Below, in pieces: positions 10,156 through 13,214 of a DNA stretch of 64,000 nt (position 1 is the stretch's first letter; each line of letters begins with the position of its first letter). Origin of the DNA: Natronorubrum thiooxidans (GTDB lineage Archaea; Halobacteriota; Halobacteria; Halobacteriales; Natrialbaceae). The notes under the pieces were generated by a model. The model saw nothing but the letters and a program-made list of their open reading frames with translations. It was not told the DNA's origin and did no database searches. Made by a program: the position numbers and the translations under genes. The DNA lies in assembly GCF_900156475.1 (NCBI RefSeq), contig NZ_FTNR01000012.1, positions 1 to 64,000 on the forward strand, in the 5' to 3' direction.

Positions 10156-10228
10156 GTCCTGGTAGGGTAGTGGACTATCCTCTTGGCTTGCGGAGCCAGG
10201 GACCGGAGTTCAAATCTCCGTCAGGACG
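10156..10228 (+). tRNA. tRNA-Arg (GCG)
   Basis: GTCCTGG pairs with TCAGGAC (one G-T pair), then discriminator G. The anticodon stem TTGGC/GCCAG encloses loop TTGCGGA with anticodon GCG, which reads the CGC/CGU arginine codons. The T-arm is CGGAG-TTCAAAT-CTCCG. A TATA-like CTTTAATG lies about 30 bases upstream. Its last 13 bases recur 152 bases downstream (see the adjoining repeat). Confidence 0.95.
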
Positions 10229-10380
10229 CTCACTTATCGCGGGCGCTTCACGTTGTTCAGCGCCCGCTCTCGTGTTCGATCCTGACGTGCCCACCGCTCA
10301 CTTCGTCACCGGCGGCGAAGCCGCCGGTTTCCAGCGGGACCTTCGGTCCCGCCCGGTTCGCGTTGGACTCCGTCAGGACG
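10216..10380 (+). repeat. 13-base copy of the tRNA-Arg 3' end bounding three perfect hairpins
   Basis: CTCCGTCAGGACG, the last 13 bases of tRNA-Arg (10216-10228), occurs again at 10368-10380. Between the copies are three perfect inverted repeats: GCGGGCGCT/AGCGCCCGC (10239-10267, 11-base loop), ACCGGCGGC-GAA-GCCGCCGGT (10308-10328) and GCGGGACC-TTC-GGTCCCGC (10334-10352). The second copy runs into six Ts. A tRNA-end duplication is what site-specific integration leaves, and the hairpins could be terminators, a structured RNA or the remnant of a mobile element. No coding sequence is visible between the copies. Confidence 0.6.
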
Positions 10381-10458
10381 TTTTTTCGAACACAACCACA
10401 GCGAATGAAGTCGATCAAATCACAAAACACATCTCGATACGTCAACAATTCATACTGA

Positions 10459-12620: not shown

Positions 12621-12674
12621 ACGGTGGACGAATCCGTTCGAGTCGAGAGCGTCGTCACTCGAGGTCTGAAACTG

Positions 12675-13214
12675 GGTGAGAGGAGTAAGCCCCCTTCTGT
12701 TCATCCCGGCATTCGGCTGAGCGTCCGCACCGTCCACGGCGAGGCCGCGGGGTGTTCGGGCTACCACGGCACGGACTTGCACCGGTGAGGATTCGCCGTT
12801 CCATCGATCCTCGGCCGTCTGTGTGTGGTCGATCGCGCCAGTATCGCCGGCAGTTGCCGGCTGCGACTCGCGGGTTCGCTGAGGAAGCGAACCGCGTCCG
12901 CGATCCACGGGTTCGAACCGTGAGCAGTCGATCACACACCCTCTGCGGGTCAACTCCCCTTCCTCTCGGTCGGGTTCGCACGCATCATTGGTCGGGCCGA
13001 GACGTGTCGTTTCTGTTCCAGAGCCAGCGGTCTCCCGCTCCGGACTTGCGCCCGGTCACCTGCCCGAACAGGTGGGGGGACTTTCCTCGCGAGCGTAATG
13101 CATCCCGACGGGATGGATCACGTTTGGAGCGGTGTGCGACTCGCGGAGTCACACGACGCTGGACAGCCGCGTCGTTGCCGACACAGCCACCGCGGCAGCC
13201 AGGCTCTCTCTCCC
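12675..13214 (-). ncRNA. rnpB: RNase P RNA (archaeal type A)
   Basis: The minus strand carries both universal RNase P core motifs: GAGGAAAGTCCCCCCAC (complement of about 13075-13091; P4 5' strand/CR-I) and, near the 3' end, ACAGAAGGGGGCTTAC (about 12686-12701; CR-V, P4 3' strand). A 5' GGGAGAG near 13214 can pair with CTCCTCTC at about 12678-12685 to form P1. A TATA-like TTATT lies about 28 bases upstream of 13214. The RNA removes 5' leaders from tRNA precursors. At roughly 540 bases it is longer than most archaeal examples. Ends are approximate. Open reading frames across it are artefacts. Confidence 0.93.

Follow-up and report, generated by a model that had tools for sequence, protein, structure and literature searches.

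Gene-free DNA cassettes bounded by copies of the tRNA 3′ end lie in arrays behind tRNA genes of haloarchaea

The segment 10229-10380 of the window (the whole stretch of 64,000 nucleotides of Natronorubrum thiooxidans DNA analysed here) is one cassette of a widespread haloarchaeal (Halobacteriales) repeat system. It is best explained, with a probability of roughly one half, as one of a class of small, non-autonomous, gene-free DNA cassettes that have the tRNA 3′ arm as their recombination junction. That this arm is the junction is shown by the cassette boundaries, which fall there. Inner parts common to different tRNAs strongly suggest, by sequence comparison, that cassettes move between tRNAs; judged from related genomes, they are also shuffled, and probably gained and lost, between species.

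The cassette behind tRNA-Arg(GCG)

The last 13 bases of tRNA-Arg, CTCCGTCAGGACG, recur exactly 152 bases downstream, as had been noticed in the original prediction. The window holds these two occurrences and no other, while local composition would yield 3.7e-5 exact copies per kb by chance. The three hairpins described between the copies are present as well, with arms at 10239-10247/10259-10267, 10308-10316/10320-10328 and 10334-10341/10345-10352. The segment folds far below its shuffles, both as RNA (z -6.2) and as DNA (+ strand, z -5.3; - strand, z -6.3). It was said to lack coding potential, and we agree: the open reading frames that cross it in several frames follow the GC-rich palindromes and are otherwise unsupported.

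At the same place behind tRNA-Arg(GCG), relatives have homologous cassettes of 85-106 bp. Comparison with these units defines the anatomy collected in Table 1: a left palindrome, the tRNA end in inverted orientation (anti-tail), a right palindrome and the closing direct copy. The anti-tail is complementary to both tRNA-end copies at 8 of 9 bases and forms with them a larger palindrome, which the original prediction did not contain. Both lesser palindromes show paired substitutions: among 21 relatives, the two bases have both changed in 7/11 pairs of the left one, and a comparison of relatives shows the same for 7/9 pairs of the right one.

Table 1 Features of the tRNA-Arg(GCG) locus in the window.
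Feature	Position	Strand	Basis or detail
tRNA-Arg(GCG), array anchor	10156-10228	+	ARAGORN, Rfam RF00005
First copy of the tRNA end, CTCCGTCAGGACG, within the tRNA (upstream junction)	10216-10228	+	
Cassette type A, 152 bp including the 50-bp insert, closed by the tRNA-end copy	10229-10380	+	Homologues in relatives
Left palindrome	10239-10267		Arms of 9 bp; TC/TC mismatches and a loop of 3 bases at the tip
Anti-tail ATCCTGACG, inverted copy of the tRNA end	10279-10287	-	
Right palindrome	10291-10366		Arms at 10291-10297 and 10360-10366, with the insert interrupting the tip
Double-hairpin insert of 50 bp within the right palindrome’s tip	10307-10356		Hairpins 10308-10328 and 10334-10352
Second tRNA-end copy, downstream cassette boundary	10368-10380	+	
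Apparent start of a decayed type B cassette (TTTTTTCGAACACAACCACAGCGAA)	10381-10405	+	Judged by eye

The second and third hairpins are real structures that do not belong to the cassette core, since both lie within a 50-bp insert. Without it the cassette measures 102 bp, and the relatives’ units behind tRNA-Arg(GCG) 99-102 bp. Relatives with a 101-bp unit lack the insert; G037, G078 and G081 have it, and G106 has part of it; related inserts occur elsewhere at the same palindrome tip, in the arrays of G037, G078, G081, G030, G096 and G106. A genome-wide repeat was considered and ruled out, the insert being single copy in its own genome. By its position it resembles an element that targets palindrome tips. 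SMR-A of Haloquadratum likewise inserts into palindromes; unlike the insert, it is ~110 bp long and present in high copy number (PMC3119063).

Six Ts do follow the second tRNA-end copy, at 10381-10386. They look like the opening of a cassette that is of a different type and has decayed, with TTTTTTCGAACACAACCACAGCGAA resembling TTTCTGTCGACACCAAACCGCGAGCG, the start of type B cassettes in relatives; by itself, the T run is no evidence of a terminator.

Arrays at the same tRNA in relatives

Further tRNA-end copies, counted within 2.6 kb downstream with at most 2 mismatches, stand behind tRNA-Arg(GCG) in 86/96 Natrialbaceae loci, where they usually delimit one or more cassettes. The units of these arrays fall into type A (~100 bp), short A (33-66 bp), type B (~150 bp) and long B (~200 bp). 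The same arrays follow tRNA-Arg(GCG) in other families, as read in 20 loci that had been picked for having a match. Of 243 genomes sampled from the order, 112 have a detectable module A; when the phylum was sampled, every one of the matches listed fell in Halobacteriales. Unit tails track the host tRNA: a CCGG acceptor goes with CCGG tails, and a CAGG acceptor with CAGG tails. Some tail copies differ slightly from their tRNA, which counts against the reading as mobile cassettes. A pattern search of the genome collection matched 29 named contigs. One contig labelled as a Nitriliruptoria MAG (L221) has the haloarchaeal tRNA-Arg cassette pattern; it is probably mis-binned.

The original prediction proposed the remnant of a tRNA-targeting element with its left and right attachment sites. 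Its junction at the tRNA end is real, and the presence, number and order of the units vary between related species; what did not hold is the single element, in place of which we find a family at many tRNAs. The prediction had also named the pattern that would count against it, namely the same segment in all relatives with no second tRNA-end copy, and relatives have the second copy. The narrower idea, in which the window segment is the scar that a single integrative element left at its attachment site when it was deleted, draws on the fact that integrase elements do use the tRNA-Arg end, in G003, G006 and G048. In G006 and G048, the element separates the tRNA from an array that was already there, and therefore came later. 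Homologous cassettes occupy this position in many genera and are found at many other tRNAs as well, which makes a single scar very improbable. The integrase elements at tRNA-Arg (L034, L037 and L378) start with TAACGGGCTACGCCCGTCCTGCAG or CTACGGGCTACGCCCGTCCTGCAG, that is with the tRNA end, a hairpin and a partial anti-tail; the one of G048 is ~24 kb long.

Cassettes at other tRNAs

Similar cassettes accompany about a quarter to a third of the tRNA genes in N. thiooxidans and in Natronorubrum bangense. We counted copies of each tRNA’s own tail as at least 17/21 matches to its 3′ end within 260 nt, for tRNAs with enough flanking sequence. Downstream copies were found at 10/40 tRNAs in N. thiooxidans and 16/44 in N. 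bangense, upstream copies at 1/42 and 2/44, respectively, and none in shuffled sequence. The downstream cases include tandem tRNA-Asp genes, one in N. thiooxidans and two in N. bangense; with these excluded, the contrast between the two sides has a p-value of 4e-8, taking the three upstream cases to be those same tandem genes.

The cassettes share a common plan: tRNA end, left palindrome, inverted T-arm copy, right palindrome, and a direct copy of T-arm and tail. They mostly measure 65-210 bp and hold no plausible genes. Between different tRNA species, 15 pairs of right and 23 pairs of left inner segments are at least 75% alike (none in shuffled sequence), and the closing copy nevertheless fits the local tRNA. 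For the anti-T copy alone, specificity for its own tRNA is statistically inseparable from the conservation of the T-loop.

The hairpin motif of the left palindrome, CGAACAANNNCGTGAGC, follows a tRNA end in 8/8 of its exact genome matches. One of these (G000:C40:242695, L254) stands after a tRNA-like end, GTTCAAATCCCTCCGACCCCA, which was absent from the output of the tRNA search and is perhaps a missed or remnant tRNA. On an N. bangense megaplasmid, a tRNA-Gly(TCC) gene bears a cassette array (L268, 2890-3140), with a matching locus on the chromosome.

Variation, reassortment and inversion

We followed the variation of arrays at tRNA-Leu(TAG) in ten Natronorubrum genomes, where the upstream sequence is conserved and the common downstream flank is recognised in eight. 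The arrays hold 1-3 cassettes, in varying order and number. Whole-cassette clustering proved unworkable because halves reassort, and the cassettes were typed by halves: left types L1-L4 join right types R1-R5 in many combinations, R1 for instance being found with L2, L3 and L4. The orders L2-L3-L4, L3-L4-L2 and L4-L2-L3 suggest cyclic permutation, weakly so, as the chance of such a set is about 1 in 10, itself an estimate on orders partly read by eye.

At tRNA-Ala(GGC), a cassette is present in G002 and G003 and absent from seven orthologous loci. The flanks beyond the tRNA-Ala arrays have diverged, and gain and loss are not separable there. An apparent empty site in G000 was dismissed, its locus being paralogous, and orthologous loci were compared instead.

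Inner segments may also turn around. Two tRNA-Met copies of N. thiooxidans differ by the orientation of a 35-bp inner segment, 97% identical once flipped, which lies between inverted T-arm copies; in three units of type A or similar to it, hairpin tips are flipped. Active inversion of the shufflon kind was rejected, with one inverted pair against 139 forward ones.

Palindromes of DNA or a structured RNA

In an alignment of 21 type A units (one row being the window unit with its insert removed), 97% of cells are paired and 15/29 pairs change on both sides; double changes occupy 76 cells, compared with a mean of 24 in shuffles. These figures would suit a functional RNA, that is a tRNA trailer with a conserved structure serving in termination, processing or regulation, and perhaps switching between two states, the anti-tail being paired either with the tRNA end or with the downstream copy. 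Folding well below shuffles agrees with it, and so do the complementarity of the anti-tail to both copies in nearly all sequences, the T-rich start of type B, and the persistence of the arrays at tRNA-Arg throughout the order, which could be a sign of function.

The manner of change speaks otherwise. G-T pairs take up 4/591 paired cells (0.7%) in the cassettes versus 30/657 (4.6%) in the acceptor and T stems of tRNAs from two of these genomes (p 1e-5), an imperfect comparison in that homologous units are set against different tRNAs. GNA triloops are especially stable in DNA, and we find them, on either strand, in 187 of the 263 tips flanked by GA. Loop inversions, and compensatory changes that bypass G-U, are known footprints of replication template switching (PMC8794818). 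Strong covariation nearly without G-T pairs, tips on both strands, the triloop preference and these footprints thus argue for palindromes kept at the level of DNA rather than for an RNA gene. The other proposal of the original prediction, a small structured RNA derived from the transcript of the tRNA, is disfavoured by this pattern: G-T pairs are nearly absent, tips flip strand, array order and number vary, and cassettes may be decayed or missing altogether. We consider a functional RNA improbable.

An Rfam scan of the window returned tRNAs and RNase P RNA only, and no family matches the cassette. The archaeal RNase P RNA gene (RF00373, window 12674-13106, - strand) is an ordinary one.

Possible mechanism

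We propose that recombination at the tRNA 3′ arm would bring cassettes into arrays and release them, with integrases most likely supplied in trans by tRNA-targeting elements. Replication template switching would repair the palindromes and flip their tips. The cassettes would then be passengers, selfish or neutral, and the tRNA would stay intact, as every junction restores its 3′ end.

Archaeal integrases are known to use 3′ parts of tRNAs, some as short as 13-14 bp (PMC8371274), and the N. thiooxidans genome has 8 tyrosine-recombinase genes. Counting against mobile cassettes, no integrase is coupled to them. The tested type A and B sequences had no match on viruses or phages, and no free or circular form was found; a search of plasmids gave as its sole match the tRNA-Gly array of the N. 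bangense megaplasmid, which is again behind the tRNA. One of the 8 tyrosine-recombinase genes, a tyrosine integrase gene, lies directly behind tRNA-His (G000:C37:17329-17400; L377, G000:C37:1-17900), and N. bangense has a cassette behind tRNA-His where the genome of the window has an integrase element.

Classic integrase attachment sites are element-specific, whereas cassette ends match each local tRNA, and an ordinary integrase site would not explain this. The match makes a serious rival of a process with no dedicated enzyme: template switching at a self-complementary tRNA gene would create the arrays, and homologous recombination would then shuffle them from strain to strain. Such switching should leave copies of the local tRNA end in both orientations, and among its described footprints (PMC8794818) are compensatory changes of several bases that skip the G-T intermediate, as well as flipped tips and the inversion. 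Alone, however, it does not account for left and right inner segments common to different tRNAs, nor for boundaries placed exactly at many tRNA ends and not upstream; for homologous recombination, the junctions of 13-24 bp are short. We hold this enzyme-free origin to be rather doubtful, and retain the cassettes recombining at the tRNA 3′ arm as the preferred reading.

It is possible to go further, and we do so tentatively: direct and inverted copies may target a cassette by complementarity to the tRNA 3′ arm, so that one machinery would serve many tRNAs and a cassette would be re-matched to its new tRNA upon transfer. Integron-like, tRNA-anchored arrays throughout haloarchaea would in that case be a new kind of mobile DNA. 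If the cassettes are what we propose, a large fraction of the tRNA genes across an entire archaeal order bears shuffling arrays of tiny integrative cassettes, the target copies of each array being matched to its own tRNA. Three questions would become testable: the way in which tRNA ends serve as recombination hot spots, a possible action of integrases in trans on very small sites, and the part that palindrome repair in DNA can have in covariation taken as evidence for RNA. For annotation, the arrays call for caution, as they resemble structured RNA genes or short open reading frames.

Comparison with known systems

No earlier description of such cassettes was found in the open-access full-text literature, outside which most subscription papers lie. 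In integrons, tandem cassettes are gathered at a fixed anchor, shuffled, and bounded by palindromic attC sites. The arrays described here are alike in their tandem cassettes, fixed anchor, shuffling and palindromic boundaries; they differ in that the anchor is a tRNA, each tRNA having its own site sequence, and that no cassette genes were seen. Among the large open reading frames adjoining the window array there is no integron integrase.

To our knowledge, REP and BIME repeats are not tied to tRNA ends. They otherwise offer a parallel as mosaic arrays of palindromes downstream of genes (PMC3733652). PATEs, SMRs and MITEs of Haloquadratum resemble the cassettes as short, transposase-free mobile elements with palindromes or inverted repeats; unlike the cassettes, the Haloquadratum elements are not described as tRNA-bound or as ending in tRNA copies (PMC3119063). 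Scattered insertion, a feature of MITEs and PATEs, is not what we see here: the motifs that were tested, and module A, are located at tRNA ends.

The cassettes also recall the archaeal integrative elements that target tRNAs, such as SSV, pT26-2, SNJ2 and other families with tyrosine recombinases: these join the tRNA 3′ end, leave the tRNA intact and carry a direct copy of its 3′ part at their far end, and the att sites of SNJ2 are reported to be as short as ~13-14 bp (PMC8371274). In contrast to such elements, the cassettes have neither genes nor an integrase, measure ~100-200 bp, and stand in arrays at many tRNAs with inner parts common between them. At tRNA-Arg, the tRNA copy of the integrase elements extends over ~44-48 bp, compared with 13-24 bp in the cassettes.
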